This document shows positions 4,448 to 21,040 of a stretch of 21,040 bases of DNA, piece after piece. Each line of letters begins with the position of its first letter. Within the stretch, counting starts at the first letter, position 1. Both the position numbers and the translations under genes were made by a program. Origin of the DNA: a virus; the IMG/VR virus record IMGVR_UViG_3300009413_003408, positions 1 to 21,040 of that record; one strand, given 5' to 3'. The notes under the pieces were generated by a model. It had not been told where the DNA came from. It searched no databases and worked only from the letters and a program-made list of their open reading frames with translations.

Positions 4448-5263
4448 ATGACAACCACGATTGATCAAAGCTTCATCGACCATTTTCAGGCCGATGTGCA
4501 TCAGGCCTATCAACGCATGGGATCAAAACTGCGCAACACGGTGCGGGTGAAAAACGCCATCAAGGGCGCGACCACGGTTTTCCAGAAAGTCGGCAAGGGC
4601 ACGGCCACCACCAAGGCCCGCCATGGCAAGGTGCCGGTAATGAATGTCGATCACGAGGCGGTCCGCTGTGACCTGCGTGATTACTATGCCGGCGACTGGG
4701 TCGATGCACTGGACGAGCTTAAAATCAACCATGATGAAAAGATGGTTCTGGCCAATGCCGGGGCCTATGCACTGGGCCGCAAGACCGACGAGCTGATCAT
4801 TAACGCGCTGGTCGGGGCCGATGATGTCGTGCCCGATAATACCGAGGGCATGACGCTTGATAAGGTGATGATGGCATTCGAAGGCCTTGGCGATCGCGAT
4901 GTGCCCGATGACGGGCAGCGCTATGCGATTGTCGGCTGGAAACAGTGGTCGGAGTTGCTTCTGATCGATGAATTTTCACGATCTGATTATATCGGTGATG
5001 AAGACCTTCCGTGGAAGGGCACACAGGCCAAACGCTGGCTTGGGACGCTCTGGATGCCCCATTCGGGCCTGCCGGTGGCAAGCGGCATTCGGTCCTGCTT
5101 CTGGTATCACCGCACCGCCATTGGCCACGCCATCGGCTCGGACGTTCAGTCCGACATCACCTGGCATGGCGATCACGCCGCACACTTTGTGAATAACTCC
5201 ATGAGCCAGGGGGCCGCGCTCATTGATGGCGATGGGGTGGTGTGCCTGAAAGCACAGGAATAG
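4448..5263 (+). CDS. Major capsid protein
   Basis: This 271-residue protein comes after the scaffold gene in the classical position of the major head protein. The sequence matches the general pattern of a podoviral capsid family often annotated as Phage_capsid_2: N-terminal YQRMGSKLRNTVRVKNAIKGATTVFQ, then HGKVPVMNVDHEAVRCDLRDYYAGDWVDALDELK. These are followed by an IVGWKQWSELLLIDEFSRSDY region and a C-terminal WMPHSGLP...CFWYHRTAIGHAIG segment. An HK97-type fold is expected from the family but cannot be seen directly. It would assemble with the portal and scaffold into the icosahedral head. No protease gene is visible nearby, consistent with T7-type heads that mature without a prohead protease. 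Confidence 0.9.
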   Translation: MTTTIDQSFIDHFQADVHQAYQRMGSKLRNTVRVKNAIKGATTVFQKVGKGTATTKARHGKVPVMNVDHEAVRCDLRDYYAGDWVDALDELKINHDEKMVLANAGAYALGRKTDELIINALVGADDVVPDNTEGMTLDKVMMAFEGLGDRDVPDDGQRYAIVGWKQWSELLLIDEFSRSDYIGDEDLPWKGTQAKRWLGTLWMPHSGLPVASGIRSCFWYHRTAIGHAIGSDVQSDITWHGDHAAHFVNNSMSQGAALIDGDGVVCLKAQE

Positions 5264-5725: not shown

Positions 5726-5758
5726 CCCCGGTGACAGATGTTGCCGGGGTTTCTTTTT
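5726..5758 (+). terminator. Intrinsic terminator before Mtd-like gene
   Basis: A CCCCGGT / GCCGGGG stem (7 pairs including one G-T) with a 10-base loop is followed by TTTCTTTTT. It lies between the head module and the receptor-binding cassette, 21 bases upstream of the 5779 start. Confidence 0.75.
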
Positions 5759-5778
5759 ATCAACCAAGGAGACTGCTC

Positions 5779-6930
5779 ATGCAGGGTTCAACCCCAGTGG
5801 AATGTGAAGTTCTCAACGTTATTCAGGGTGCAGGTATCTGGCCTGATTGCGATGACAAGACCCAGTTACTGCAGGCAATTCAGGTTTTGGCTGATGCGCA
5901 AGGCATGAATGGTATTGCTGCAGCAGCTGGATACTTTTCGATGATGGGCAAGATGTCGGCGTCAGGTGCGACGTCGCTCAATATCCCCGAAGGGTCGGTC
6001 AATATTGGTGGTAACGGTAAAGGTTTCATCATCACGGCTCAGACCGGGTTCGATGTATCGGACGCTGCGAGCCATGACGGGTCTTTTACCAGTTTGGCCC
6101 TTGGCGATGACATCTACATCTACGCCGTCGACAACGGGGTGGCAGAAGCAAAACTTATTGCCAGCAAAAACGCCGATTTTCCCGACGGCTATAGTGCCGT
6201 AACCAGTCGCAAGATTGGTGGCTTCCACTACGGGCGCGTGCGTCCAGTTGCCAGTCGCTATGACACGGTATTTGTGCCGACTGTTCAGATCGTACCGAAC
6301 AGTGTCTGGGATTTGAATCATCGCCCGACCTGCGATCCGACCGGTATGGTTGAGATCGTCCCGGGTGGTTTCTGGGCAGACATCTACCTGAACTCCGAGG
6401 GCGGCGGAACTTGGCCGGAAAATGTGCCGGTCAGTCGATATGGACAGACATTGATCCGGAACCTTGATTATGCGCGCTCCGATATGCACTTGCTTGTGCG
6501 GAACGCAGGAAAGCGTCTGCCGACCGTGGAGGAGTTCATGACCTATGCGGAAGGTGCTCCAGCAGGTCAAGACAACAATAATGAATTCGCGTGGGCAGCA
6601 AATACAAATGGCAGCCCTTCGAGTGCAGGTTTTGTTGAGAAGTCTGTTTCAATGTTCAATGTGGTCGATGCCGTTGGGAACCTCTGGGATTTCCTTGATG
6701 ACCATCACGATTGGGGCGGGGCCTTTTCGAAGGATGCTAGTGTCGTCAATGTCGGTAAGGATGCTGCAATCCCGCGTGGCACGGTTGAACATGCCGATTG
6801 GAGCAACTTTGCGGGCGGCGGATCGTACACATATGGCGCTGGCGCTGGGTCACGTTGTTTGTACACTTCTTCGAAGCCATGGGTTACGAACGGTGTCGTC
6901 GGTTTGCGTGGTGTCTGTGAAGCCGCTTAA
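5779..6930 (+). CDS. Mtd-like C-type-lectin receptor-binding protein
   Basis: This 383-residue protein starts at the ATG preceded by AAGGAG at 7 bases. It has three visible parts. The first is an N-terminal module, TPVECEVLNVIQGAGIWPDCDDKTQLLQAI, shared with the next gene. The second is a beta-rich middle part (about 50-190). The third is a C-terminal formylglycine-enzyme/C-type-lectin-like domain (about 190-383), with GKRLPTVEEFMTYAEGAP, VVDAVGNLWDFLDDHHDW and the ending AGSRC...GLRGVCEAA. This ending matches the variable region of Mtd, the receptor-binding tropism protein of Bordetella phage BPP-1. In that phage a reverse transcriptase diversifies it; none is visible here. The likely role is recognition of a bacterial surface ligand at the tail tip. 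Base composition is less GC-rich than in flanking virion genes, suggesting module exchange. Confidence 0.85.
   Translation: MQGSTPVECEVLNVIQGAGIWPDCDDKTQLLQAIQVLADAQGMNGIAAAAGYFSMMGKMSASGATSLNIPEGSVNIGGNGKGFIITAQTGFDVSDAASHDGSFTSLALGDDIYIYAVDNGVAEAKLIASKNADFPDGYSAVTSRKIGGFHYGRVRPVASRYDTVFVPTVQIVPNSVWDLNHRPTCDPTGMVEIVPGGFWADIYLNSEGGGTWPENVPVSRYGQTLIRNLDYARSDMHLLVRNAGKRLPTVEEFMTYAEGAPAGQDNNNEFAWAANTNGSPSSAGFVEKSVSMFNVVDAVGNLWDFLDDHHDWGGAFSKDASVVNVGKDAAIPRGTVEHADWSNFAGGGSYTYGAGAGSRCLYTSSKPWVTNGVVGLRGVCEAA
6811..6927 (+). other. Candidate DGR-type variable region
   Basis: The last 39 codons before the stop resemble the variable repeat of Mtd-type targets. Fixed residues (GGGS, GAGSR, KPW, GLRGVC) alternate with codons ending in C or T, such as TAC, TAT, TGT, TAC, GTT, AAC, GGT, GTC and GTC. 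That is the pattern expected when template AAC/AAT codons are randomised at adenines. A small hairpin (AGACA-ATG-TGTCT, 6947-6959) and the 6970 terminator stem lie just downstream, where target-recognition hairpins occur in BPP-1. No template repeat was found in the window, so diversification is not established. Confidence 0.45.
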
Positions 6931-6969: not shown

Positions 6970-7003
6970 CCCCGGCAGCGCATCCTTGCCGGGGTTCTTT
7001 TTT
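6970..7003 (+). terminator. Intrinsic terminator between receptor-binding genes
   Basis: A perfect 8-bp stem (CCCCGGCA / TGCCGGGG) is followed by TTCTTTTTT. It lies 40 bases after the Mtd-like stop and 22 bases before the next start, mirroring the 5726 terminator. Confidence 0.8.
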
Positions 7004-7024
7004 GATCAAAGTTGGAGAATTTAT

Positions 7025-7627
7025 ATGCAGTGTTTCAGCCCGGTCGAAAGCGAAGTTCTCAATGTCGTGCTGGCGGCAGATATCCAGCCTGACCGTTTGG
7101 ATGACACGCAGTTGTTACAGGCGATCAATGCGTTGATTTCTGGCGGTGGCTCTGGCGGCAGTGGTGTTGTTGCAGGCAGCGAAATCGGTTCGGTTTCGGC
7201 CTTTGCCATGCCGACGCCACCGACTGGGTGGCTGGTCTGTGATGGGTCGGCGATCTCGCGCACCGAATATGCCGATCTATTTGCCGCTATTGGCACGCTT
7301 TGGGGCCATGGTGATGAGGTGACGACCTTTAACTTGCCGGACCTTCGTGGCGAGTTCGTTCGTGGCTTCGATGATGGTCGTGGTGTGGATGATGGGCGGG
7401 CGTTTGCTTCTGCCCAGAGTGATGAGTTTAAGAGCCATTACCATGGCTTTGTAAACCAGCTAGGCGCTCAGGACGCAGGCAACGATGGATACATCACAAC
7501 TGGCGACGATCCGGTTGATCAATCTCTTGCCAACTCAGTGACGGATAACGCAGGCGGTGACGAAACCCGTCCACGCAACATCGCGATGACTTATGCGATC
7601 AAGGCGTTTTATCCATCGGCGTCATAA
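7025..7627 (+). CDS. Tail-collar domain protein, second receptor-binding candidate
   Basis: This 200-residue protein starts at the ATG with GGAG 7 bases upstream. Residues 1-38 (SPVESEVLNVV...DDTQLLQAINAL) repeat the N-terminal module of the preceding Mtd-like protein. A Gly/Ser-rich linker (about 39-52) leads to a phage tail-collar domain: PTPPTGWLVCDGSAISRTEY, FNLPDLRGEFVRGFDDGRG, then SHYHGF and the C-terminal ETRPRNIAMTYAIKA. Tail-collar domains occur at the tips of tail fibres and short tails and often take part in host contact. The shared N-terminus implies that both proteins dock at the same virion site. It occupies the position where BPP-1 has the accessory, template and reverse transcriptase part of its diversity cassette. 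Confidence 0.85.
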   Translation: MQCFSPVESEVLNVVLAADIQPDRLDDTQLLQAINALISGGGSGGSGVVAGSEIGSVSAFAMPTPPTGWLVCDGSAISRTEYADLFAAIGTLWGHGDEVTTFNLPDLRGEFVRGFDDGRGVDDGRAFASAQSDEFKSHYHGFVNQLGAQDAGNDGYITTGDDPVDQSLANSVTDNAGGDETRPRNIAMTYAIKAFYPSAS

Positions 7628-7678: not shown

Positions 7679-7694
7679 TTTGGGGGCAAAACTG

Positions 7695-8273
7695 ATGGCG
7701 TTAAGTGATGTGGCGCTGTGTGCGCGGGCTTTGGTGATGATCGGGGCGGCGCCGATTTCATCGTTTGAGGAGGACGTCGCCGAGGCCGAGATTGCCCGGA
7801 TGCTGTATGCGAGCGTGCGTGACGGCATGCTGGCGGGCTATCCGTGGCGGTTTGCCGGGCGGGGGTGCTGGTTGTCGCGACTGGCTGGTGACGACGCGGC
7901 GACATCGCCCCAGGATGGAAGCCATCTGTTTGCCTTGCCACGCGATTTTATCCGCCTTCTGTCGCTTGAAAATGACGGGGGCAAGATTGCCCGGTTTGAG
8001 TTGCGCGATCAGGCGGTTCTGGTCGCGGGTGACAGTGCGCATCTTTCCTATGTCGCCAGACTGCCGGAGGGCAGCTTTCCGGCGTGGTTTGATATGGCCC
8101 TGATGGCGCGGCTGGCAGCGGAGTTTTGCCTGCCGCTGACCGAAAGCAGCACGCGGGCCGAGTACCTTTTCAAGCGGGCCGAGGACCAGTTGCGTGAAGC
8201 ACGGCTTGCCGATGCGCAGCAATCGACCCCGCATGCGATTGATGATTTTTCCCTGATTTCGGCGCGGGGCTAG
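7695..8273 (+). CDS. Tail tubular protein A (T7 gp11-like adaptor)
   Basis: This 192-residue protein has the start MALSDVALCARALVMIGA typical of the podoviral tail tubular protein A family. The body continues with the family pattern: ARMLYASVRDGMLAGYPWRFAGR, LPRDFIRLLSL, FDMALMARLAAEFCLPLTES. The ATG at 7695 is chosen because GGGGG lies 8 bases upstream; an in-frame upstream codon at 7680 sits inside the terminator T-run. In T7 this protein forms a dodecameric ring joining the portal to the nozzle. The next gene, the nozzle, fits this order. Composition is again GC-rich, unlike the preceding cassette. Confidence 0.88.
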   Translation: MALSDVALCARALVMIGAAPISSFEEDVAEAEIARMLYASVRDGMLAGYPWRFAGRGCWLSRLAGDDAATSPQDGSHLFALPRDFIRLLSLENDGGKIARFELRDQAVLVAGDSAHLSYVARLPEGSFPAWFDMALMARLAAEFCLPLTESSTRAEYLFKRAEDQLREARLADAQQSTPHAIDDFSLISARG

Positions 8274-8316
8274 GGGCGTGGGTCGGGCCTTGGTCCGCGG
8301 GTTTGGAGCCTGCGGT

Positions 8317-8420
8317 GCGAGTTTCCCGCCTTCGCGGGAATGACGTTTGTTCCATGAGATTGTTTTACCTTCCGTCATCCCCGCGAAGAGCCTGTGCCCG
8401 CGAAGGCGGGTACGGGGATC
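8317..8420. repeat. REP/BIME-like inverted repeat, copy 4 (composite right arm)
   Basis: The left arm (8317-8345) has the TTCCCGCCTTCGCGGGAATGACG element. The right side begins CGTCATCCCCGCGAAG at 8373, is interrupted by AGCCTGTG, then has CCCGCGAAGGCGGGTACGGGG to about 8417. The right arm is therefore a partial duplication of the palindrome. It lies between the tail tubular and nozzle genes. Confidence 0.8.
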
Positions 8421-8464
8421 CCGATCCACAAGCGTATTACCTTTATTCATTGAGGGAGCATCCC

Positions 8465-10393
8465 ATGGCACGCCGCGTTCTGGAGAAAAACACGTTTTCG
8501 ACCGGCGAACTGGCCCCGGAATTGTGGGGGCGCTCGGACCTGAGCGCCTATGCCAATGGGGCAGCACGCCTGCGCAATGTTTTTATCGAACCATCGGGCG
8601 GGGTGCGTCGCCGTCCCGGCATTCGATTGATCGATGAACTGTCCGGTCCGGCGCGGTTGATTCAGTTCGAGTTCAATACCGAACAGACCTATTTGCTGGC
8701 CTTTGGCGATAAACATGCACTGGTGTTCGAGGATGAGGCAAAGACGATCTGGTTTGAAACCACGTTCGGCGAAGAACAGCTTGATCTTTTGAACTGGACG
8801 CAAAGTGCCGATACGCTTCTGGTGGTGCATCCCGCGGCCCCGCCGGTGCGTATTACCCGGACAGGCGATGGCAGCTGGCAAACCACCCTTTGGGCCTGGC
8901 GCGAAACCAATTTCCGCACCAGCCAGCCCTATTACAAGTTTGTCGAACCCGCCGCCACCCTGACCCCGTCAGGCACCAGCGGGACGGTGAGCCTTACCGC
9001 GAATGTGGATTTGTTCGTTGCGGGGCATGTTGGCACGCTGTGGCGGATTCAGGGGATCGAGGGTGAGATCACCAACGTTTCCGATGCCCGGACCGCACAA
9101 ATCGCCCTGAAGCAGGCACTGCCCAACACCAATGCCACGGTCGATTTCGTCGAACAGGCCTTTTCCGAAGTGCGCGGTTGGCCGCGCAGTGTGACCTTTC
9201 ATCAGGACCGGTTGATCATCGGCGGATCGCGCGATCTGCCCAACCGCCTGTGGATGTCAAAGTCTGGTGATCTGTTTAATTTCGAACTGGGCGAGGGCCT
9301 TGATGACGAGGCGATTGAATTTGCCCTGCTGGCTGATCAGGTCAATGCGATCACGGGCATTTTCGCCGGGCGTCATTTGCAGGTCTTTACCAGCGGATCG
9401 GAATGGATGGTGACGGGTGATCCGCTCACCCCGGCCAATGTGCAGGTCACGCGCCAGACCCGGATCGGCAGCCAAAGTGATCGCACTGTGCCACTGGTCA
9501 ATGTCGATGGTGCGACGCTTTTTGCCGGGCGGAGCGGGCGCGAAATTCGCGAATTCCTGTTCACCGATGTCGAACAGGCTTATGGATCAGCCGACCTTGC
9601 CTTGCTGTCACGCCATCTGATCAATCATCCCATCGATCAGGCCTTTGATCCGGAACGCCGGCTTTTGCATGTGGTGATGCACGATGGATCGCTTGCCACC
9701 CTGACGCTGTATCGGTCTGAGGCCATCACCGCCTGGTCGGCGCAATCGGTTGCGGGATGTTCCTTTAGATCCGTTTCGGTATCCGGCGGGGATGTCTATG
9801 TTGTGCTGGAACGCGACGGGCATCATTTCCTGGGCGTGTTTGACCCGCAATGCGGTTTCGACCTTTATCGCCGCCATGCGGTGGCAGAGGGCGAACCGCC
9901 ACGCCGACATTGGGGCAATCTTGATGCACTGGATGGCCTTGATGTCAGCGTTTGGCACGATGGCGTTCTTGCCGATGACATCCCGGTTGCCGGGGGCACG
10001 ATTACGCTGCCAGATCGTATCGGGGCAGTGGCGGAGATCGAGGTCGGCTTGCCCTTTACCCATGAAATCTATGCCCTGCCGCCGGCCGCATCGGATGGCA
10101 GCCGCCCGCATGGCGGCAATGCCGTGCGGCTGGTCTCGGTGACCCTGCGCTTGCAGGAAACCGGGCAGTTGCGCGTTGATACCGGTCGGGGATTGCGCGA
10201 TGTCGCACTTCCGGTATCTGCGCTACCCGATGACAAAGACGCGCTGTATAGCGGGGATATCACGCTGCGCGCGCTTGGCTGGCGGCGGGGCAGTGGCGGG
10301 GGACTGAAAAGTGGACTTTGGCGCATCGCCGGGGCATTGCCCCGGCCTTTTTTATTGCTTGGTGTGGCCAGTGAAATGGGGGTGAATGACTGA
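8465..10393 (+). CDS. Tail nozzle protein (tail tubular protein B-like)
   Basis: This 642-residue protein starts at the ATG preceded by GAGGGAG. Upstream in-frame codons fall in the palindromic repeat. It shows hallmarks of the podoviral nozzle family: FSTGELAPELWGRSDLSAYANGAARLRNVFIEPSGG at the N-terminus ("FxxGExSPxLxGRxDLxxYxxG"), FVEQAFSEVRGWPRSVTFHQDRL, then GGSRDLPNRLWMSKSGDLFNF and the FTSGSEWMVTG segment. T7 gp12 forms the hexameric nozzle below the adaptor ring and carries the fibres. Its stop overlaps the next ATG (TGATG). An unusual terminator-like hairpin lies inside its last 70 bases. Confidence 0.9.
   Translation: MARRVLEKNTFSTGELAPELWGRSDLSAYANGAARLRNVFIEPSGGVRRRPGIRLIDELSGPARLIQFEFNTEQTYLLAFGDKHALVFEDEAKTIWFETTFGEEQLDLLNWTQSADTLLVVHPAAPPVRITRTGDGSWQTTLWAWRETNFRTSQPYYKFVEPAATLTPSGTSGTVSLTANVDLFVAGHVGTLWRIQGIEGEITNVSDARTAQIALKQALPNTNATVDFVEQAFSEVRGWPRSVTFHQDRLIIGGSRDLPNRLWMSKSGDLFNFELGEGLDDEAIEFALLADQVNAITGIFAGRHLQVFTSGSEWMVTGDPLTPANVQVTRQTRIGSQSDRTVPLVNVDGATLFAGRSGREIREFLFTDVEQAYGSADLALLSRHLINHPIDQAFDPERRLLHVVMHDGSLATLTLYRSEAITAWSAQSVAGCSFRSVSVSGGDVYVVLERDGHHFLGVFDPQCGFDLYRRHAVAEGEPPRRHWGNLDALDGLDVSVWHDGVLADDIPVAGGTITLPDRIGAVAEIEVGLPFTHEIYALPPAASDGSRPHGGNAVRLVSVTLRLQETGQLRVDTGRGLRDVALPVSALPDDKDALYSGDITLRALGWRRGSGGGLKSGLWRIAGALPRPFLLLGVASEMGVND
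10328..10353 (+). terminator. Terminator-like hairpin inside the nozzle gene
   Basis: A perfect 8-bp stem GCCGGGGC / GCCCCGGC with an ATT loop is followed by C and six T. It lies within the coding sequence, about 40 bases before the stop, and encodes AGALPRPFLL. By sequence it is as strong as the intergenic terminators, but translation would normally keep it unfolded. Confidence 0.55.
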
Positions 10394-10833
10394 TGGGTGG
10401 ATTTACATCAATCGTGCCGATGGCGGCATCGGTCCTGCAAACCGGACAACGCATTAGCGCCAACCAGACCAATGCACAAAGCCGGATTGATCAGGGCGAA
10501 GCCGCCCGTCAGGCGGAGCTGGCCGAGATCGAGGCGCGCCAGCGTGAAGACGCCACCAAACGCGAAGAGGAGCTTCGGCGGCGTCAGGCAACCGCGCGTG
10601 CCCGGCAAGGGGCATCGGGGCTGATGGCCGGTGGGTCTGGTTCGGCCAGCGCGGTTCTGGCGGGGTTTGAAAAGACCGCGCGGCAGGATGCGGAACTGGA
10701 CGCAGATGCCGCTGCCCGCAAGCGACGCCGCATCAACCAACAGGCCGCCTGGCGCGAAAAGTCGCTGTTGCGATCGACGCAGGATGACACGGTCGCACGG
10801 CTGAATGCCTGGTTTTCAAAGCGTGATGGCTGA
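10393..10833 (+). CDS. Coiled-coil virion protein, possible internal core protein
   Basis: This 146-residue protein begins at an ATG overlapping the nozzle stop. After a hydrophobic N-terminal stretch (FTSIVPMAASVLQTGQRI) it is almost entirely charged helix, about residues 30-70 (GEAARQAELAEIEARQREDATKREEELRRRQ pattern). A glycine-rich hinge follows (ASGLMAGGSGSAS, near 73-85), then a second charged helix rich in Arg and Ala. Proteins of this kind sit between nozzle and fibre genes in podoviruses, where internal or ejected virion proteins are encoded. The family identity is not certain. It is much smaller than T7 gp14, gp15 or gp16. No large lytic-transglycosylase core protein is seen nearby. 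Confidence 0.75.
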   Translation: MGGFTSIVPMAASVLQTGQRISANQTNAQSRIDQGEAARQAELAEIEARQREDATKREEELRRRQATARARQGASGLMAGGSGSASAVLAGFEKTARQDAELDADAAARKRRRINQQAAWREKSLLRSTQDDTVARLNAWFSKRDG

Positions 10834-10855: not shown

Positions 10856-12259
10856 ATGGGCGCTGTTTTTGCCAATCAGATCCGTGCCACCATTGCCTTT
10901 GTCGGCGATGGCGCGCGTGACAAATTTCCGTTTGATTTTGATGTGTTTGATGCGGGTGATCTGCGCATCACCATCAATGGCAATGAAATCGAAACCGGGT
11001 TTCACGTCGCCTTGACGCCCAGTGATGAGGGCGGCGGTGGTGTGGTGCGGTTTGAACACCCGCCGGAAACCGGTGCCCGGATCACCATTGCCCGCCAGTT
11101 GCATTTGCGCCGGCTAAGTGCCTTTGACGCCATGTCGATCCCGCGCGGTGATGCGCTGGAACGTGATCTTGATTTCATGACGGCCGCCCTTGGCGATGTT
11201 GATCACGCACTGACCGGGACGCTGCGCTTTGGTCCGGATCAGGATGCACCTGCATCGGCTGAATTGCCGGTGATCACGCCCGGTCGGGCCCTGATCTGGA
11301 ACGCGGCGGGCACGGGGCTTGCCAACGGACCCAGTGGGGCGGAGATCGCGCAGGCCAGCACCAAGGCAGCGCAGGCACAGGATGCCGCCAACCGGGCGGA
11401 GGCCGCCGAAAGCCGATCTGAAATCGCGGTCGCGTCGTTTGAAAGATCAAACGCCTCGGCGATGCTTGATCTTGATTTTCGCAGTGGCGATGTCCTGGCG
11501 TGGGAGGATGAGCGCCGCATGCCGGTGATTGATGCGCCGGTCAGCCGGATCATGGATATCCGCGAAACCGGATCGCTGGTCAGGCTTTCCAGCGGGGCGC
11601 AATTGACCTTGCCGGTGGCATCTGTTGCGCGCAATGGGGTGAGCTATCGCGTGTTTAACGGTGATGGCACGATGGTCGATATTACAACGGCGGCGGGGAA
11701 TGTCATCCGCCCGACCAACGGCGGGGCGGAGGTGACCGTTTATCCGTTGCCGACACGCGGTGACATGGTCGATCTGATCTGTGATGGCACGCGCTGGTTT
11801 GCTGCCCCGATCCATGAAACCGGCCCGGTGGTGAAGCTTTTGCGGACGGCCAGCCAATCCATTCCGGCGGGTGGGGCGTTTCTGGTTGAATGGGATCAGG
11901 TGATCGAAGACAGCCACGGGCTTTATGACAGTGCGGTGCATGGCGTGACGGGCCTTCCGCCGGGCTTTTATCACGTTGATATCGGGGTGCGGCTTCCGAT
12001 TACCGACCAGTCGGTCTTTACGACTTTGTCGCTCGAACGCTTTGACGGCACCGATTGGTCGAGCCACCTGCAAGCCAATGACATCACCGCCACGGGCAGC
12101 GGGGCGGCGCACAGCTTGCGGCTGAATGGCATTGCCCGGATCGGGGCAACGCCCGGTACCGGATTGCGTTTGCGCATCGTGCATAGCGACACCCAAACGC
12201 GCGAAATCGCGGCAAGTGATCTTTTGACCTGGTGTCACATCCATCGCATTGGCGGCTAG
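10856..12259 (+). CDS. Tail fibre protein with T7-type N-terminus and C1q-like tip
   Basis: This 467-residue protein starts at the ATG preceded by GGGGGAAG. Residues 1-110 have the beta-rich anchor pattern of T7 tail fibres: FVGDGARDKFPFDFDVFDAGDLRI ... GVVRFEHPPETGARITIARQL. An alanine-rich coiled coil (about 160-195, TKAAQAQDAANRAEAAESR) probably trimerises the shaft. The C-terminal part (about 320-467) reads IPAGGAFLVEWDQVIED, LPPGFYHVDIGVRLP and LRLRIVHSDTQ, resembling the jelly-roll C1q/TNF-like tips of many phage fibres; this part of the call is less certain. It would attach to the nozzle and contact the cell surface. Confidence 0.82.
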   Translation: MGAVFANQIRATIAFVGDGARDKFPFDFDVFDAGDLRITINGNEIETGFHVALTPSDEGGGGVVRFEHPPETGARITIARQLHLRRLSAFDAMSIPRGDALERDLDFMTAALGDVDHALTGTLRFGPDQDAPASAELPVITPGRALIWNAAGTGLANGPSGAEIAQASTKAAQAQDAANRAEAAESRSEIAVASFERSNASAMLDLDFRSGDVLAWEDERRMPVIDAPVSRIMDIRETGSLVRLSSGAQLTLPVASVARNGVSYRVFNGDGTMVDITTAAGNVIRPTNGGAEVTVYPLPTRGDMVDLICDGTRWFAAPIHETGPVVKLLRTASQSIPAGGAFLVEWDQVIEDSHGLYDSAVHGVTGLPPGFYHVDIGVRLPITDQSVFTTLSLERFDGTDWSSHLQANDITATGSGAAHSLRLNGIARIGATPGTGLRLRIVHSDTQTREIAASDLLTWCHIHRIGG

Positions 12260-12314
12260 CACGCCACCACGCACCTGCCATCCATCGACTACACACTGAT
12301 CGGAGATGCATCCA

Positions 12315-13421
12315 ATGGGATTGCGTTATCAGCCGCTTGCGGCCTGCATGAATGTTTCGCGCGCCAGCACCAAGCTTATCCAAAGCCAAAATGGCCTGCT
12401 TGAAACCCGCGCGATTGATGAACCGGCCTATGACCATGATCGGCTTGGCCGTCGCCTGGGCCTTTTGATCGAGGGGGCGGCGACCAACCTGCTGCGCTAC
12501 TCAATGGCCTTTGACAATGCGCTTTGGGAAAAGAACATTGGTGTGGTGGTAAGTGCCAGCACAATCGCCGCCCCGGATGGCAGCCAAACCGCGATGCAGC
12601 TTGATCTGCCGGGCAGTGCGGCGGGTGCGGATGGCCTGTATCAGAATGTCGGCGGGCTTGTGGCCAGTGAAACCTATAGCTTTGCCGTCTGGATGCGTGC
12701 GGTATCAGGCACGGCTGACATCACGCTTGGCGGGATTGACGGGGCCTCCACACATGGTTTTGCCTTGGATGAAAACTGGCAGCGGGTGTGGATTGCTGAA
12801 CCGGCTTCAAACACCACGCGATACCCGAAAATCAGCACCGCAATCAGCGCACTTCCGGCATCCATCCTGATCTGGAATGCGCAGCTTGAAGTCGGGCCAG
12901 CCCCCACCAGCGATATCATCAGCAACGGCATTCCGGCAGCGCGGGCGTGCGATGATGTGCGGCTTGATCCCGGCGACTGGTTCGCCCAGGGCCCGGGCAC
13001 ACTGGTGTTTGATCTCCATACCGCCAAGGATTGGGCAGGTATCTGGCGGATCGTGCAGCTTTATTCCGCAAGCCTCAATGATGATCACCTTGATCTTGGC
13101 TATGACAGTGCCGCCGATCAGTTGCGCATTTCGCTGCGTTCTGATGGCGTGCCGCTCGTCACCCAGTCGCTTTATGGAAGCCTTGCCAAGGATACCCGCC
13201 ATCGCATCGCGCTGGCATGGGATGATGATGTGATTTCGGTCGGGCTGGATGGTGTGGTGCTGTCATCGCCGGATGGCTTTGCCATGCCACGCAATTTTTC
13301 CAACATCGTGTTGGGCTCGTTTGGCGGAACCGACAAGGCCCTGAACGGCCATGTGCGCAATCTGGCCTACTGGCCGGAAAAGCTATCGAATGCGCGGCTG
13401 ATCGAACTTTCAACGGTTTAG
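12315..13421 (+). CDS. Lectin-like phage fibre/tail-associated protein
   Basis: The call uses the ATG at 12315 (MGLRYQPLAACMNVS, 368 residues), which has CGGAG 9 bases upstream. The alternative ATG at 12306 touches that site. The N-terminal part has a phage motif seen in tailspike and fibre proteins: GRRLGLLIEGAATNLLRYS with a tryptophan nearby (LWEKN). A carbohydrate-binding-like beta sandwich follows (about 80-200; TYSFAVWMRAVSGTADITL, NWQRVWI). The C-terminal part (about 220-368; GTLVFDLHTAKDWAG, RHRIALAWDDDVISVGLDG, IVLGSFGGTDKALNGHVRNLAYWPE) has the pattern of a LamG/concanavalin-type sandwich. It probably binds surface glycans and is encoded directly after the main fibre. Confidence 0.75.
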   Translation: MGLRYQPLAACMNVSRASTKLIQSQNGLLETRAIDEPAYDHDRLGRRLGLLIEGAATNLLRYSMAFDNALWEKNIGVVVSASTIAAPDGSQTAMQLDLPGSAAGADGLYQNVGGLVASETYSFAVWMRAVSGTADITLGGIDGASTHGFALDENWQRVWIAEPASNTTRYPKISTAISALPASILIWNAQLEVGPAPTSDIISNGIPAARACDDVRLDPGDWFAQGPGTLVFDLHTAKDWAGIWRIVQLYSASLNDDHLDLGYDSAADQLRISLRSDGVPLVTQSLYGSLAKDTRHRIALAWDDDVISVGLDGVVLSSPDGFAMPRNFSNIVLGSFGGTDKALNGHVRNLAYWPEKLSNARLIELSTV

Positions 13422-13430
13422 GGATGGCGC

Positions 13431-13787
13431 ATGACTGAGACAGAAAAAGCCGATCCGGTTGCGAGTTTACGGGCCGAACTGCTACGTGATTTGCCCGGTG
13501 ATATCAAACGTGTGCGCAATGCCTATCGCCGTGCGGCACAGCAGGCCGCCCTTATGCGCGACGCCAAGGATTTCAACACCCATCAGGCGGCGTGCAAGGC
13601 GGCCCTTGGGCATCTTGATGGGTTGATCAAGTTGCTGCGGTGGGCGAGTGAAGAGGGCGAAGATAAAAAACAACTCCGTAAGAGTCTTAGTGCGGAAAGC
13701 TCTGATGATTTGATTAGAACTGCTAGAAAAAGAATGAACTATTCCTCTTGTCTGTTTGGATCTTCGACAGGGGCTCCCCAGCTTTGA
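13431..13787 (+). CDS. Probable small terminase subunit, altered 3' end
   Basis: This 118-residue helical protein (ELLRDLPGDIKRVRNAYRRAAQQAALMRDAKDFNTHQAACKAALGHLDGLIK pattern) starts 9 bases after the preceding stop, with AGGGA 6 bases upstream. It has no membrane segment. Position and size (T7 gp18 is 89 residues) suggest the DNA-recognising small terminase paired with the large subunit at 15564. Composition changes abruptly near base 13665 from GC-rich to AT-rich. The last 16 residues (YSSCLFGSSTGAPQL end) are encoded in the antisense of the KAP gene's 3' end, with 49 bases overlap. The original C-terminus has probably been replaced where that gene was inserted. Confidence 0.65.
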   Translation: MTETEKADPVASLRAELLRDLPGDIKRVRNAYRRAAQQAALMRDAKDFNTHQAACKAALGHLDGLIKLLRWASEEGEDKKQLRKSLSAESSDDLIRTARKRMNYSSCLFGSSTGAPQL

Positions 13788-15451
13788 AGTCGTTTAAGCC
13801 GGAGTGGTGACTTTTCAGCTATTGTTTGAAGGGCAGATTTTACTGTTTCTTTGATTATAGCGGCGTTTTCTCCGGGTTCATTTCCCATCGCAACGACATA
13901 CTTGATTGCGTTCCTGAGCTGTTTTCCTGAGAGTTTCTCAAAGATACCAATGAACTGATCTACAGTGACCTTGGATAGAAGAAATAATTCAGTTTTTTCC
14001 CAGTTTCCTGAGTCTGCTACTCCACAGACCACGTCGTAGGGGGTGCGATCATCTCGGTAGTTCTCTCGCTCTGTTTCAAGTGCTCTAAGAAGTTCAGGGT
14101 CAACATTTTTAGCCGAAAGAAAGTGGTTTTCTTCGATATCGAAGAACTCATAGTTTTCGTGTGAATGTGCTGAGATATAACTATCTATTAGGGCTCTGGC
14201 CTCATCATTATATCCGTAGCTCTTCAGGAAAATGACTGTACTGTTTATGTTTTGTAAGGAGATATATTCAGCCTCTTTGACCGCCGAGTTATACAATGCA
14301 CGTAGCACCTCGTCGTCATCGACAGCAAGAGAACCATGATAAAGGTCTTGCCATGCTGCACTAAACTCGTATGTGGTTTGCTTATTATCTTGGCGTTGGG
14401 AGATTACGGTCGCGTAGCCTTCAATCTCCTCAGTGGCAAAGTATCCCGTCTCAATTCCCGAGATTATTGCGTTATCAAAATCGTCTGTTTGCGCGTAACC
14501 GTAATTGTCCAGAAGTTGGCGCCACTTTGTCTCTTCATCTGAGAGAGCGTTGTCGTGTAACTTTGTGAACATTGACAAGGTGTTGAAGTCACGCAGAAAC
14601 TCAACTGAAGGGCCCCTTTTAGGCTCGTTAACTGCCCAAGATGCTAAAACCGTTGTTGAGATTGCTTGGTCAACGATTGAAGTTTTTTGACCAGAGAGGA
14701 TTTCACTAATTTGTTTTGCGTTACGACAGATCTTTCTCATGACTCTGATATTCGAAACGCCTAGTTTTGAAATTAGAGGTCTAATTTTATCTGTAAGTTC
14801 TGAGTTCTCGCTCAAACCAAGAGTTAAAGCTTCCTCGGATGTGATTTCAAATCTGAATGATTTGTCGACTACCTTCTCCAGGTGATTTTCGAACACAACT
14901 TGATCATTCTCTTCCAATTCTTGATCATTCAAGAGCAATACGACTTTGCAGTTCCTCTCTTCTTTCAGCAATGAGGCTAACCCAAGCAATTCAACTACTT
15001 CTAAACCGTTGCTCCGTCGTTCTAGGTCATCAAAGCAAACAATCTGATCTCGAACCATCATAAAAGAGGCATTCAGTAGTGGAGCGGATAAGCCACCTAA
15101 CTTGAAGTAACTGAGGCCTGCGGAAATAAAAGGAATAGTTCCCTTTCCTACTTTTTTTAGGCTGTTGATCATATTTACATAAGAATCGGGATCAGCGCTC
15201 CCCGAAGAGGTTGAGCAAGGTACAGTGTTTGAAAAGCACGTATATTTTAAATCAAATAGCGATTTGATCCCGAATAGAGACACATAAGAGTAGTTTTTTA
15301 GTCCGATATCATTGTTTTTTGAGGCTTCTTCGAAACATCTACGCCAAGTATAGGTTTTGCCCACTCCCCATTTCCCCTTAATGCAAAGTACTTCTGGCTC
15401 TTCGGAATTGAGAAACCGGCGTATCTCTTTTTCAATAAGCTCAAGTGACAT
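13739..15451 (-). CDS. KAP-family P-loop NTPase (prophage moron)
   Basis: This 570-residue protein is encoded on the minus strand between the two terminase genes. A P-loop GKWGVGKT (residues 26-33) is followed by a Walker B strand IVCFDDLER (137-145) and a VVLLLND sensor strand (170-176). The FDDLER form is typical of the KAP NTPase family, which includes PifA of the F plasmid. A weakly hydrophobic stretch (about 105-133) sits between the Walker motifs, where many KAP proteins carry membrane helices. The remainder is a helical C-terminal region of unknown fold. The gene is clearly AT-richer than its neighbours, has GAGG 7 bases before its ATG, and opposes late transcription. It is most likely a lysogen-expressed phage-exclusion gene; that role is inference. 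Confidence 0.8.
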   Translation of the reverse strand: MSLELIEKEIRRFLNSEEPEVLCIKGKWGVGKTYTWRRCFEEASKNNDIGLKNYSYVSLFGIKSLFDLKYTCFSNTVPCSTSSGSADPDSYVNMINSLKKVGKGTIPFISAGLSYFKLGGLSAPLLNASFMMVRDQIVCFDDLERRSNGLEVVELLGLASLLKEERNCKVVLLLNDQELEENDQVVFENHLEKVVDKSFRFEITSEEALTLGLSENSELTDKIRPLISKLGVSNIRVMRKICRNAKQISEILSGQKTSIVDQAISTTVLASWAVNEPKRGPSVEFLRDFNTLSMFTKLHDNALSDEETKWRQLLDNYGYAQTDDFDNAIISGIETGYFATEEIEGYATVISQRQDNKQTTYEFSAAWQDLYHGSLAVDDDEVLRALYNSAVKEAEYISLQNINSTVIFLKSYGYNDEARALIDSYISAHSHENYEFFDIEENHFLSAKNVDPELLRALETERENYRDDRTPYDVVCGVADSGNWEKTELFLLSKVTVDQFIGIFEKLSGKQLRNAIKYVVAMGNEPGENAAIIKETVKSALQTIAEKSPLRLKRLQSWGAPVEDPNRQEE

Positions 15452-15563
15452 TTAGGGCCTCAAGAAAATTCAGAACAATGGTTCGTAGGGTAAACGCAAA
15501 AAACTGTGATGGCGATGGATATAACCGTGATGGTTGTATTGTTTTCCAGAGAGGCGACGCTCT

Positions 15564-17078
15564 ATGAAGACTGTCAATATTACTGCAAGCTTCGCCGAAT
15601 TCGTCTGGATCTGGGATCAGATGTTGGGGCTGAATTTGCCCGGCCATCATCGCAAGATGGCCGATTGGCTTGAAGACTGCTGGCGGTCGGGCAAGCGGGA
15701 AATGCTTTTGATGGCGTTTCGCAATTCCGGCAAATCGACACTGGTCGGGTTGTTTTGTGCCTGGTTGCTTTATCGCGATGCCGATATGCGTATTCTGGTT
15801 CTGGCGGCTGATCTGGATCTGGCGAAAAAGATGGTGCGCAACGTCAAGCGCGTGATTGAACGCCATCCATTGATGAGCACCCTTTTGCCCGACAAGCGGA
15901 TCGATTGGGGCAGTGAGCGGTTTACCGTGGCGCGAACGGCTGTGTTGCGTGATCCGTCGATGCAGGCGGTGGGTATTGGCGGCAACATCACCGGATCGCG
16001 CGCCGATATCGTGATTTGCGATGATGTCGAGGTGCCCAAAAACAGCGATACCGCCCATAAACGTGCCGAGCTGCGCGAAAAGCTTGGCGAAATTGCCTAT
16101 GTGCTGGGGCCACGTGGTGCGCAGCTTTATGTCGGAACCCCGCACAGCTATTATTCGATCTACGCCCGCGAAGCGCGATCCGAGGTCGGCGAAGCTGCCC
16201 CGTTCCTTGACGGTTTTTCACGCTTTGAGCTGCCCATCGTCAATAAGGACGGGGCGTCAAACTGGCCGGAAAGATTTGATCTGACCGCGATCAAGGCGAT
16301 GCGGATCCGTACCCCGGTTCGCAAGTTTCAAAGCCAGATGATGCTTGAAATGGTCGCACCCGTGGCCGGGATGCTCGATCCGGCAAAATTGCGGTTCTAC
16401 GACGATCAAGCCGAGGTCACGCATGGCAATGGCCGCATGACGCTTCGGATTGGCGGGCGGACCATGGTGGCGAGTGCCTGCCATTTTGATCCGAGTTTCG
16501 GGTCGCTTCGGGGTGACGGGGCGGTGGTAGCGTGCGTTTATATCTGTGATCAGGGGGAATACTGGTTGCAGGATGTCGCGTGGTTGCGCGCGGCCAATCC
16601 GGGCGATCCGGCCGAAAGCGGTGACAGGCCATGGCGCGATGAAGCCAGCCAGCTTTGTGCGCAGGTGGCCGACTTCATGGCGCGCCATCACTTGCCGTCT
16701 GTTCGGGTCGAGACCAATGGCATTGGCCGGTTTTTGCCCAATATCCTTCGGCGTGAACTGAAATCAATCGGATGGGCCGCCAGCGTCGTAGAGCATTATG
16801 AGAGTACGAACAAAGCCACCCGGATCGAGGACGCCTTTGGCGCGGTGATGGGCGCGGGATTGTTGCATGTGCATGAAGGCGTTCGCCACACACCGTTCCT
16901 GCGCCAGATGCGCGATTGGCATCCTGAGGGGAATGGCCCGGATGACGGGCTGGATGCGGTGGCAGGCTGTATTTTGCATGATCCGGTGCGTTTGCCGCGG
17001 GTCGATATGCCGGTCAAACGTGCCGATTGGCGGGGGATTGGCGGGATTTTCCGGGCCGAGAGCCACTTCAACCCGTGA
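15564..17078 (+). CDS. Terminase large subunit
   Basis: This 504-residue packaging motor protein starts at MKTVNITASFAEF, with AGAGAGG 9 bases upstream; ten extra codons from 15534 are unlikely. The ATPase half has Walker A AFRNSGKST (51-59), Walker B IVICDDVE (149-156) and coupling motif YVGTPH (189-194). The RNase H-like nuclease half shows ACHFDPSFGS (first Asp at 309), VRVETNGIGRFLP, and the final acidic motif DDGLDA (460-465). It cuts and pumps DNA into the head through the portal. Its location after the fibres matches T7 gp19. It is separated from the small terminase by the KAP gene, which may uncouple their expression. Confidence 0.95.
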   Translation: MKTVNITASFAEFVWIWDQMLGLNLPGHHRKMADWLEDCWRSGKREMLLMAFRNSGKSTLVGLFCAWLLYRDADMRILVLAADLDLAKKMVRNVKRVIERHPLMSTLLPDKRIDWGSERFTVARTAVLRDPSMQAVGIGGNITGSRADIVICDDVEVPKNSDTAHKRAELREKLGEIAYVLGPRGAQLYVGTPHSYYSIYAREARSEVGEAAPFLDGFSRFELPIVNKDGASNWPERFDLTAIKAMRIRTPVRKFQSQMMLEMVAPVAGMLDPAKLRFYDDQAEVTHGNGRMTLRIGGRTMVASACHFDPSFGSLRGDGAVVACVYICDQGEYWLQDVAWLRAANPGDPAESGDRPWRDEASQLCAQVADFMARHHLPSVRVETNGIGRFLPNILRRELKSIGWAASVVEHYESTNKATRIEDAFGAVMGAGLLHVHEGVRHTPFLRQMRDWHPEGNGPDDGLDAVAGCILHDPVRLPRVDMPVKRADWRGIGGIFRAESHFNP

Positions 17079-17830: not shown

Positions 17831-18154
17831 ATGACCCTGCCTGTGACCCAGTCTGTCGATGTGATCTGGTGGATCACGGCTGTTGAAATCCCTGTTGTCG
17901 CCAGCCTGTTCTGGCTGCATTGGCGGATGCGTTCCGAATTGCTGAGCCGCGTGGAACAGCAACGCAGCCGACAGGACACAGACGTCACCGATCTGCGGGA
18001 TGGCTTGGCGGCGTTCAAGCTTGATGTCGCGCGCAACTATGTCTCCATCCCCTATCTCAAGGATGTCGAAAAGCGCCTGACCGGCCATTTGCTCCGGATC
18101 GAGGCCAAACTCGATACCCCCATCATCCCGACCCAAAAGGATCAGAGCTTATGA
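17831..18154 (+). CDS. Membrane coiled-coil protein of the lysis cassette
   Basis: This 107-residue protein starts at the ATG 5 bases after GAGG. In-frame codons further upstream lie inside the terminator. It has one N-terminal membrane span (about 10-29, VIWWITAVEIPVVASLFWLHW), a basic RMR, then a long charged helix (about 33-98) ending LKDVEKRLTGHLLRIEAKLD. Single-span plus coiled-coil topology and its place immediately before endolysin and holin suggest a lysis accessory protein, possibly spanin- or pinholin-like. It could equally be an unrelated membrane-anchored protein. It overlaps the hydrolase by ATGA (four bases), so the two are translationally coupled. Confidence 0.75.
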   Translation: MTLPVTQSVDVIWWITAVEIPVVASLFWLHWRMRSELLSRVEQQRSRQDTDVTDLRDGLAAFKLDVARNYVSIPYLKDVEKRLTGHLLRIEAKLDTPIIPTQKDQSL

Positions 18155-18621
18155 ATGACACCCAAACCCTGACCAGATCGGCCCCGCAACCGGTAACCGA
18201 CCCCGATATGCTGTCCGAAGTCGAAGTGCTTGCCCGCACGCTCTATGGCGAGGCGCGCGGCGAAGAACTCTCCGGGATCGAGGCCGTGGCATCGGTCATC
18301 CTCAACCGGGTGGCCTTTGCCAAACGGCGCGGTCGCTATTGGTGGGGCAATGACATCAAGTCGGTGTGCCTGAAACCGGCACAGTTTTCCTGCTGGAACG
18401 CCAAGGATCCCAACCGCAAGAAGCTGCTGGCACTCAGCCCGCGTGACCCGGCCTATCGCTTGTGCAAACGCATCGCCAAGCGCGCAGTGGCGGGTGAGCT
18501 TCCCGACCCAACCGATGGTGCCACCCACTATCACACCCATGCGGTCGATCCGTTCTGGGCAAGTGGGCATGTGCCGGTCGCCGAGATCGGAAACCACTTG
18601 TTTTACAAAAATATTGGGTAG
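18151..18621 (+). CDS. SleB-type cell wall hydrolase (endolysin)
   Basis: This 156-residue protein consists almost entirely of a cell-wall hydrolase SleB domain (Hydrolase_2 family). Visible family motifs are LARTLYGEARGE with the presumed catalytic Glu34, VASVILNRV (46-54), LKPAQFSCWN (about 74-83), and the C-terminal DGATHYHTHAVDPFWA. In this family the enzyme cleaves peptidoglycan glycan strands as a lytic transglycosylase. There is no signal peptide, so it needs the holin encoded next to reach the wall. It overlaps the upstream membrane protein gene by four bases and precedes the holin by 11 bases. Confidence 0.92.
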   Translation: MNDTQTLTRSAPQPVTDPDMLSEVEVLARTLYGEARGEELSGIEAVASVILNRVAFAKRRGRYWWGNDIKSVCLKPAQFSCWNAKDPNRKKLLALSPRDPAYRLCKRIAKRAVAGELPDPTDGATHYHTHAVDPFWASGHVPVAEIGNHLFYKNIG

Positions 18622-18632
18622 GGAGGTATCAC

Positions 18633-19121
18633 ATGATCCCGGCGTTGCTCGCCCAGATCGGCCTGCCGCTTTTGATGAAGGCGGTGGGTGCGGGGCTTGA
18701 TCATATCGACAACCCGATCGCCAAAACCGCGGCCGAGGGCCTCAAACAGGTAGAGGCGGCCGTGACCAAGGGCGACGTCACGCCCGAACAAATCAACGCG
18801 GCCAACCGCCACACCGAACGCATGGCCGAAATCGAACTGGCGCGCGATACCGAAACACTCAAATCGGTGAACCGCACCATCCGTGCCGAGGTCGCCAGCG
18901 AAGATGCGTTCGTACGGCGCTGGCGCCCCAGCTTCGGCTATGCCGTCGCCCTGACCTGGATCATGACCATGGGCGCAATTGCGGCTGCCATCATCCTCAC
19001 CCCGCTCCAGGCCCCGGCGATCATCGCAGCACTCGTCAATACCAGCCCGATCTGGGGTATTGCGCTTGGGGTTTTGGGTGTGAGTGTGGTTAAGCGGAGT
19101 GCGGATAAGAGGCTCACTTAG
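18633..19121 (+). CDS. 3TM-family holin
   Basis: This 162-residue protein matches the family "holin of 3TMs, for gene-transfer release". It has a hydrophobic N-terminal segment (IPALLAQIGLPLLMKAVGAG), a soluble helical middle with ITPEQ-type residues (GDVTPEQINAANRHTERMAEIELA), then the diagnostic RWRPSFGYAVALTW. Two further hydrophobic spans follow (about 102-122 and 128-154). GGAGG lies upstream of the ATG. It would permeabilise the inner membrane and release the SleB-type hydrolase. It is the last plus-strand phage gene; the following minus-strand gene ends one base after its stop. Confidence 0.88.
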   Translation: MIPALLAQIGLPLLMKAVGAGLDHIDNPIAKTAAEGLKQVEAAVTKGDVTPEQINAANRHTERMAEIELARDTETLKSVNRTIRAEVASEDAFVRRWRPSFGYAVALTWIMTMGAIAAAIILTPLQAPAIIAALVNTSPIWGIALGVLGVSVVKRSADKRLT

Positions 19122-20489
19122 CTACTTTATTTTTGCAAGATTTCGCATTGCCAAGCCGAGTAAAAATAGGAAAATAAACCCCAAAATTCCCTCAAAAGTA
19201 CTAATCCAATACAGATCAGCAAGGCAATCAGTATGAGCCTCTAACGTTCTGTTGTTTGGATTGCAGAGTGAGTTTTCTGTGATCGAGCGGCCTATGCTCA
19301 CTTGTCCAAAAAATGGGAAAAGACCTACAAAAGCTGCTATTAGAGCTTTGCTGTCTAAGTTTGTTACCAACTCTAGTCGTTCAGTGTATGACTGCGAAAT
19401 GAGTCCTGAATAGCAGTAGGCCGAGACGAATAAAGTTACGATTAGGCTGATCACTGGTCGAATAATTGATAGCCCGAAACTAGAGAAGATCCCATACGCA
19501 TGGTTTATCAACAAGTTAGGCCAATTTCGCGCATCTAGATAAGACAGAGCGTGTTTGCGCTTTGCCCTCATTTCCATTGCGAAGAAAAGTAATTCTTCCT
19601 CATGGCTATGCCTTTGTGCAGCAAACTTTCGCAGTGTGCGAAAGGCATCGTGCAAGCCGCGTGTTTTTGCTATCCCCAATAGTCTTTCTAGCCAGAATTT
19701 TGAGATGGGGTAGGAAATCTTAACATTGTCCAGAATAGGTGGGTATTCTGACGGAAATGAGGTGTCGCTGATATCCAATACACATTTTGGGAACTCCGAG
19801 AATTCAAATGATGAGTAGCCGTCGAAGCGACAGGAGCTAAGGGTTAGATTGTCGAAGAACTTCGAGGAAGTAATTCTGGCCTCTCTAATGAACGTACAGT
19901 TCAGAAGGCTTAGGCCCCTTGTGAATACATTCTCATCAATGAACGTTTCGCCTGACACACTCAAAAAGTGTATGTCTGCTAAAAAGTTGATGTCGCAATT
20001 GGAAAAAGTGAGGTCGGTTCCCACCTCGACTACGTCGATTGAGAACCAAGAATTCTCTGATGTCGATACGTTTTGAATATTGAGTTGGCCTAAAGTTGAC
20101 CCGCAGATCGAGAGTGCTCTCTCAAAATCGCAGTCAAAAATTAAAACCTCTCCATTCACTTGCGAATTTTCTATCTCGAACGACCCGAAGAAGAAGCAAT
20201 GTTCGAACTCTATACTTCTATGGAGTTCACTCGAACTGATATGAACGTTGTCTTTGAAACGGACATTTCTGAACTTAATCCCGATAGCACACTTAAAATC
20301 AACCAAGCGAATACCGGGTAGTTCGATGTCTGAGATTTGGATCAGGTAAATCCCAGACTCATTGATAAACTGGTTACTAAGTGGTGACTGCAACCAAGCT
20401 ATGAATTGGTCTAGATGATCAGAGGCAAGTTTATTCCAGTTTTTCTGGTCTACAAGTTTTCGTACCTTTGGGCTGAACAGTAAGCTCAT
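19122..20489 (-). CDS. Pentapeptide-type repeat protein with C-terminal membrane segments (moron)
   Basis: The ATG at 20489 gives 455 residues; a TTG at 20513 would add eight and looks less likely. Residues about 50-250 form an irregular beta-helix-like region in which F or L recurs every five residues (IKFRNVRFKDNVHI, FEHCFFFGSFEIENSQV, LSLLNCTFIREARI), as in pentapeptide-repeat proteins. A helical linker follows (about 265-325). Three hydrophobic segments come next (about 340-362, 382-397 and 432-448), with a basic C-terminus (RNLAKIK). Pentapeptide plus membrane-pore-like architectures are known in bacteria, but their function is mostly unknown. The gene is AT-rich, antisense to the late operon and at the prophage edge, so it is probably a lysogenic-conversion or exclusion gene. 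Confidence 0.75.
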   Translation of the reverse strand: MSLLFSPKVRKLVDQKNWNKLASDHLDQFIAWLQSPLSNQFINESGIYLIQISDIELPGIRLVDFKCAIGIKFRNVRFKDNVHISSSELHRSIEFEHCFFFGSFEIENSQVNGEVLIFDCDFERALSICGSTLGQLNIQNVSTSENSWFSIDVVEVGTDLTFSNCDINFLADIHFLSVSGETFIDENVFTRGLSLLNCTFIREARITSSKFFDNLTLSSCRFDGYSSFEFSEFPKCVLDISDTSFPSEYPPILDNVKISYPISKFWLERLLGIAKTRGLHDAFRTLRKFAAQRHSHEEELLFFAMEMRAKRKHALSYLDARNWPNLLINHAYGIFSSFGLSIIRPVISLIVTLFVSAYCYSGLISQSYTERLELVTNLDSKALIAAFVGLFPFFGQVSIGRSITENSLCNPNNRTLEAHTDCLADLYWISTFEGILGFIFLFLLGLAMRNLAKIK

Positions 20490-20514
20490 GCAAATCCCGC
20501 CAAGATCAGACAAT

Positions 20515-20670: not shown

Positions 20671-21040
20671 TCAGGCGTCTTGTATTGCAATCTCAAGGTT
20701 CTTCATAACCTTGCCCTGACCACCTGCCAGAAGGCCGGTGATGCGGTCGTTTTTGAGCTCTAGCGTGACCTTGATCTGGCTGGGGGGACGGCTCAGTCAT
20801 GAATTCGCCCTAGGCGATCAAGAAGCTGTCCTTTTTGATGTCCAGCAGGTCATGGAGCACGCAGGCCAGCGGGCCGGCGGCCATGCCGGTGGCGGCTTCT
20901 TCGGATATGCCATAGCGCGGGGCGAACATGCGGGTGGTGGCGTCAATCCCGGCATCACGGGTGTCCGTTGTGAAGATGTAATAGCCGATCACGTCAAGCT
21001 TCTCGCTAATCGCGTTTTTTGGCGTCCTGATCGGGCGTGA
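20671..21040 (-). pseudogene. PhzF-family isomerase, 3' part, broken by stop and frameshift
   Basis: Reading the minus strand from the window edge, the frame is open: VIGYYIFTTDTRDAGIDATT, then the PhzF-family motif GISEEAATGMAAGPLA, which is the usual GxxEDPATGxA region. An in-frame TAG at 20810-20812 follows FLIA where family members have Gln (AQG). Beyond it the frame continues as GEFMTEPS. Removing one base from the six-G run at 20782-20787 restores SQIKVTLELKNDRITGLLAG, followed by GQGKVMKNLEIAIQDA and a stop at 20671-20673. Both lesions together indicate decay, though sequencing error in the G-run is possible. The 5' end lies outside the window. PhzF-like proteins are cytosolic isomerases or epimerases, and the substrate is unknown here. 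Confidence 0.8.

Follow-up and report, generated by a model that had tools for sequence, protein, structure and literature searches.

A KAP-like NTPase gene between the terminase genes of a podovirus-type element in Thalassospira is a candidate antiviral gene

The window carries T7-type virion genes and a KAP-like gene between terS and terL

The DNA that we analyzed, here called the window, is a single 21-kb IMG/VR record (21,040 nucleotides) that IMG/VR classes as viral. Two genes at its left end (positions 1 to 953, plus strand) encode element proteins of 146 and 174 aa that belong to no family. Nine further Thalassospira genomes have these genes in the same place, at the left end of the element. 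Virion genes follow on the same strand. They encode a 507-aa head-tail connector/portal (1434 to 2957; Pfam Head-tail_con, 9.5e-126), a T7-type capsid assembly (scaffold) protein (3343 to 4014; PF05396, 5e-12), and a 271-aa major capsid protein (4448 to 5263; PF19821, 1e-79; phrog_3437). An Mtd-like receptor-binding/tail protein (5731 to 6930) and a tail-collar-like protein (6986 to 7627) are both highly variable between loci. We noticed no reverse transcriptase, and therefore the window gives no evidence for a diversity-generating retroelement. The tail region continues with tail proteins (phrog_394 and phrog_376) and an internal virion protein (phrog_418) at 7680 to 10833, and with tail-fiber-like and LamG-domain proteins at 10856 to 13421. 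An endolysin and a GTA-type 3TM holin (PF11351) are encoded at 18151 to 19121. The right end has two genes on the minus strand, one for a pentapeptide-repeat protein with hydrophobic C-terminal stretches (19122 to 20513; G+C 0.43) and part of a chromosomal phzF-like gene (20783 to 21016) that borders the element elsewhere in Thalassospira.

The KAP-like gene lies at 13739 to 15451 on the minus strand, between the terminase genes. The ORF is intact, with an ATG start, a TAG stop, and no internal stops over 570 aa. To its left is a gene for a 118-aa TerS-like protein of the "type II" form (13431 to 13787, plus strand; phrog_31793), which we assigned by its position, its length, and its conservation beside TerL in 77 of 109 further loci. 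The KAP-like gene and terS overlap by 49 bp at their 3' ends, and the final 16 or so TerS residues are thus encoded by the insert. On the other side is the gene for the 504-aa terminase large subunit (15564 to 17078, plus strand; phrog_38, 3e-84), in which ATPase and nuclease-like motifs are present. In the divergent intergenic region (15452 to 15563), a ribosome-binding-like site, GAGG, precedes the KAP ATG, and AGAGAGGCG precedes that of terL. A sigma-70 promoter scan found nothing before the KAP-like gene, with counts not above those of shuffled sequences. The G+C content of the gene is 0.42, compared with 0.58 for terL and 0.59 for a tail gene. The original prediction of an AT-rich, reverse-oriented gene between the two terminase genes, coding for an NTPase with complete Walker motifs including FDDLER, is therefore correct.

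The protein combines an AAA+/STAND-like ATPase part with a helical C-terminal part

The Walker A motif is GKWGVGKT (residues 26 to 33), the Walker B motif is CFDDLER (residues 139 to 145), and an LLLND motif is at residues 172 to 176. The Walker A and B core residues are invariant across 29 aligned homologues. The motifs G-WG-GKT, Y-S-FG, DD-ER, EK--D, and N-R are kept in alignments of 7 and of 29 sequences.

PifA of the F plasmid, which excludes T7, is a named member of the KAP family, and the original prediction leaned on this link. Neither this link nor an exclusion of podoviruses in particular is supported, since the Pfam match (KAP_NTPase, PF07693) is confined to the Walker A region and the KAP transmembrane insert is missing. 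The match covers residues 16 to 55 only, at 3.8e-5 and 23.5 bits against a cut-off of 20. We found no clear transmembrane helix in the protein, in which the best 19-residue hydropathy mean was 1.17. Residues 83 to 121, the equivalent of the KAP transmembrane insert, have low confidence in the structure model. The protein thus has the motifs and the Pfam match of the KAP family and lacks transmembrane helices in the NTPase domain, and we therefore call it KAP-like. According to the title of a 2004 paper by Aravind et al. (cited in PMC11846954), KAP NTPase domains carry inserted transmembrane helices. Tmn, a tested defense gene, encodes a KAP-family P-loop NTPase like that of the window; however, Tmn has two transmembrane segments (PMC11846954). 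The PADLOC hits of the window protein included no Tmn model.

Broader matches were found to two families. The PADLOC model PDC-S49 (5.8e-27) aligns over most of the protein, with residues 24 to 404 of 570 matching profile positions 29 to 407 of 624. The match to phrog_4740 (8.5e-53) covers residues 1 to 522. The window protein thus shares a detectable sequence family with PDC-S49 and phrog_4740, both uncharacterized, whereas the host element and the gene site differ. A literature search found no paper naming PDC-S49, which in PADLOC is only a candidate family.

A structure model built with an alignment had a pLDDT of 86. A model built without an alignment reached a pLDDT of 41 and was discarded. 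The architecture is an AAA+/STAND-like N-terminal part up to about residue 285 and a helical C-terminal part, and no separate effector domain was recognized. In a fold search that covered mainly residues 1 to 285, this first part of the model resembled AAA+/STAND-type ATPases, namely Orc1/Cdc6, TnsC, MuB, CED-4, and RdrA. The ATPase domain fold is common to the window protein, RdrA (RADAR), CED-4, Orc1/Cdc6, and TnsC (Z of 11.6 to 14.4 over about 200 to 270 residues). However, the likeness to these four is at the level of the fold, with about 8 to 17% identity and no common partner or effector. In the model, the matches have mostly similar Z scores, and the fold does not imply a function. A search of solved structures by sequence gave no match to the protein.

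The terS-terL gap is a slot with changing cargo in Thalassospira

We read the terS-terL gap in 45 Thalassospira-type loci found through TerL relatives, several of which are near-duplicates. The gap holds different genes in relatives, a positive outcome for the check proposed with the original prediction. It ranges from 25 bp to 6 kb, and in 14 of the 45 loci it is essentially empty (25 to 215 bp) with the virion genes kept. A role in packaging is therefore unlikely for the KAP-like gene, judging from these related gaps. With the window counted in, just 2 of 46 gaps contain a KAP gene. The second is in one other Thalassospira MAG, in the same gap and orientation, and its product is 43% identical over 569 aa. 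This recurrence, together with purifying selection in the family (median dN/dS of 0.13 for 44 pairs in a P2-type subset), indicates that the observation is not due to chance.

Elsewhere, the gap contains genes for GIY-YIG, ParDE, Xre-RES, SoFic (PADLOC E value, 1e-119), PD-T4-7 (6e-44), PDC-M02A/B (1e-62 and 8e-94), and PDC-S31 (3e-44). Small secreted proteins, genes without a family, and combinations of up to 6 kb are also found. Because toxin-antitoxin (TA) genes and secreted proteins share the slot, not all of its cargo is antiviral. At an E value of 1e-10, PADLOC models matched at least 9 of 23 proteins from the cargo and no more than 6 of 60 from flanking host genes (P = 0.004, Fisher test); the cargo ORFs were picked by hand and the PADLOC models are permissive, and we therefore take this enrichment as supporting evidence. 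Two conserved genes thus enclose short defense cargo with high turnover, as expected of a phage-encoded defense hotspot.

Outside the Thalassospira group, TerS was found in the 77 loci mentioned above and mostly overlaps or abuts TerL; the 109 loci include a few of Thalassospira type. The few larger gaps outside the group hold mainly fiber-type virion genes or unassigned genes. Therefore, on this survey of gene order, the defense slot looks specific to the Thalassospira lineage.

The window and four other loci (L003, L005, L006, and L076) are 91 to 98% identical in the neighboring LamG, fiber, TerL, and holin proteins, and yet their TerS proteins are only about 46 to 50% identical to that of the window. 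The window protein encoded at 12306 to 13421, for example, is 95% identical to its counterpart in L076, and TerS only 50%. TerS of L008 is 88% identical to window TerS, like the remaining proteins. The simplest reading of these few comparisons is that homologous recombination in the conserved flanks probably exchanged terS and the cargo together, as a single block.

There are two distinct TerS forms in Thalassospira, in the window (13431 to 13787) and in other loci, and their distribution is discordant with TerL relationships.

Relatives of the KAP-like gene occupy an antiviral hotspot of P2-like phages

A single-sequence search of viral contigs found no close relatives of the KAP-like gene. 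An alignment-based search of IMG/VR found 58 distant relatives. The P2-type portal gene gpQ is nearby in 36 of the 58, mostly adjacent to the KAP gene and convergent with it, and gpA is also in view in 32 of these 36. PHROGs confirmed gpQ and gpA in two loci and a gpP-type terminase in one. The P2 old/tin locus between gpA and gpQ was shown to be an antiviral hotspot by Rousset et al. (PMC9122126). Judged by their flanking genes, the gpQ/gpA-flanked relatives sit in this hotspot, so that full-length KAP relatives are, by context, prophage cargo at a known antiviral site. The three systems newly validated at the P2 hotspot do not include one described as a KAP NTPase (PMC9122126). In the P2-type examples listed, the KAP gene is AT-rich, with a G+C content of 0.29 to 0.36, versus 0.42 to 0.51 for the locus. 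Plasmid relatives are about 29 to 34% identical over the whole length, and they are solitary or near TIR, S8-peptidase/ATPase, or SOS-type genes. Members of the family are more frequent in P2-like phages and plasmids; KAP genes are rare in the order of Thalassospira (7 of 297 genomes).

The old/tin locus and the terS-terL gap are alike as small slots between two conserved phage genes, with exchangeable antiviral cargo and the same KAP-like family. They differ in that the slot of the window is between terS and terL, in a podovirus-type element that is apparently nonmobile and vertically inherited. The proposal of a candidate anti-phage accessory gene has thus gained ground from the PDC-S49 match, the P2 old/tin relatives, and the defense and TA genes in sister gaps. 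Gene context in two unrelated element types makes an anti-phage role plausible. The gene could instead be a selfish or neutral passenger, addiction-like or a decaying insertion, which has no antiviral role and is tolerated because the gap is permissive. The rarity of KAP in the order would fit such a passenger, as would the TA modules, GIY-YIG genes, and secreted proteins in the same gap. However, the ORFs are intact, the family is under purifying selection, the cargo is enriched in matches to defense models, and the family recurs at the P2 hotspot. We therefore consider a passenger unlikely and favor an antiviral gene.

A second, distant KAP-like NTPase of about 633 aa is encoded at other chromosomal sites of two Thalassospira genomes (L159 and L160). 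It has 29% identity over about 245 residues, and its gene adjoins a GTPase-like gene.

The element is inherited with its host and resembles a gene transfer agent

The original prediction placed the gene inside a T7-like prophage, where it could be a classical moron by which an active temperate podophage keeps out rival podoviruses. The T7-type capsid, scaffold, connector, and TerL genes and the viral classification by IMG/VR are compatible with such a phage. However, each of the 29 Thalassospira genomes searched has a single copy of TerL (full-length in 28, partial in one). Across the order, 131 of 297 sampled genomes have TerL, almost always as one copy. In 10 of 10 Thalassospira genomes examined, the element is at one chromosomal locus. 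Its conserved neighbors include, on the left side where this is covered, genes for an S24 repressor-like protein and an inositol monophosphatase, and, on the right, DUF952, flavin oxidoreductase, and pyrD genes. The window ends in part of the phzF-like flanking gene and is therefore at this locus too. Across 24 species, the distances for TerL and for rpoB are strongly correlated (Mantel r = 0.919; 0 of 5,000 permutations), and 15 of 21 splits are common to the two trees, with one well-supported conflict. TerL has a dN/dS of 0.21. The span from the first gene to the holin is 16.0 to 22.2 kb in complete regions, and in one region it is 24.5 kb from the connector. Family scans of part of the flank ORFs detected no integrase, replication gene, or polymerase. 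We found no att repeat, and the longest exact direct repeats in the flanks were 10 to 13 bp. The integrase, att repeats, replication genes, and patchy distribution of an active temperate podophage were thus not found, and a moron of such a phage is very unlikely. The prophage assignment is not supported, since the element is genus-wide and vertically inherited.

The single copy, the one locus, the vertical inheritance, and the lack of detected integrase and replication genes make the element resemble a domesticated or GTA-like one. A definition of GTAs lists six features (PMC9662315). Among them, we found Caudoviricete-derived particle genes, full endogenization in the host genome, and vertical inheritance with codiversification. 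RcGTA, BaGTA, and FpGTA are likewise Caudoviricete-derived, endogenized, and codiversifying with the host (PMC9662315, PMC12946183). In contrast to them, the element described here has T7-type packaging and capsid genes and occurs in the Rhodospirillales. It looks like a previously undescribed, podovirus-type GTA-like element rather than an ordinary T7-like prophage.

The S24 peptidase/HTH repressor-like gene adjoins the left end of the element (L174, 14689 to 15309, plus strand) and is a candidate regulator of it. We found it in five other Thalassospira regions, at 84 to 100% identity.

The KAP-like gene probably encodes a sensor NTPase for antiviral defense

We suggest that the KAP-like gene probably encodes a cytoplasmic sensor NTPase for antiviral defense and that it is cargo of a domesticated podovirus-type element, in a slot whose contents can be exchanged. 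The steps to this reading are taken from sequence: the intact NTPase, its family, the turnover of the slot with virion genes kept, and the inheritance of the element with its host. In this scenario, the gene would have its own minus-strand promoter, and the AAA+/STAND-like domain (residues 1 to about 285) would stay switched off until the helical C-terminal half (about 285 to 557) sensed an infection cue. ATP-driven assembly would then halt growth or phage development. Because no separate effector domain was recognized, either the oligomer would act as the effector or it would recruit one. The contents of the slot would probably be swapped with terS carried along.

Least likely is that the NTPase serves the element itself by controlling particle production, lysis, or GTA release, as its place between two packaging genes and the precedent of Caulobacter LypABC (a CARD-NLR-like, immunity-like NTPase system on which GTA-mediated lysis depends; PMC13236601) might suggest, because nearly all terS-terL gaps do without a KAP gene, many of them essentially empty, and P2-like phages and plasmids are the more usual carriers of the family.

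More tentatively, an antiviral KAP-like gene in this slot might be part of a wider arrangement, in which a podovirus-type GTA inherited vertically in Thalassospira carries a lineage-specific antiviral slot. If so, the conserved genes of the element would be the recombination anchors for swapping defense genes between strains. Active prophages and satellites are known to carry defense hotspots; the slot described here would place one within an apparently domesticated phage element that is fixed in a genus. Two questions follow: do Rhodospirillales produce gene transfer agents of the podovirus type, and do such elements contribute to the swapping of immune genes? The KAP-like family itself, concrete and independently recurring, is now available for defense assays.

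Further observations

The same TerL family is present in Azospirillum (loci L146, L147, L153, and L155). Azospirillum is reported to release GTA-like particles with about 10 kb of random host DNA, whose gene source has been assigned to other regions, and strain B510 has a prophage region of about 20 kb, B510PP02 (PMC3899980).

The region between the holin and phzF-like genes is a second variable, accessory slot, which we examined in the window and in nine other loci (L076, L077, L078, L080, L082, L084, L094, L090, and L095). The window carries the pentapeptide-repeat, membrane-type protein here. Elsewhere in Thalassospira, the slot holds a HipA-like gene, named by eye, or an AbiLi/AbiLii-like pair, which in L090 has PADLOC E values of 9e-90 and 1e-25.
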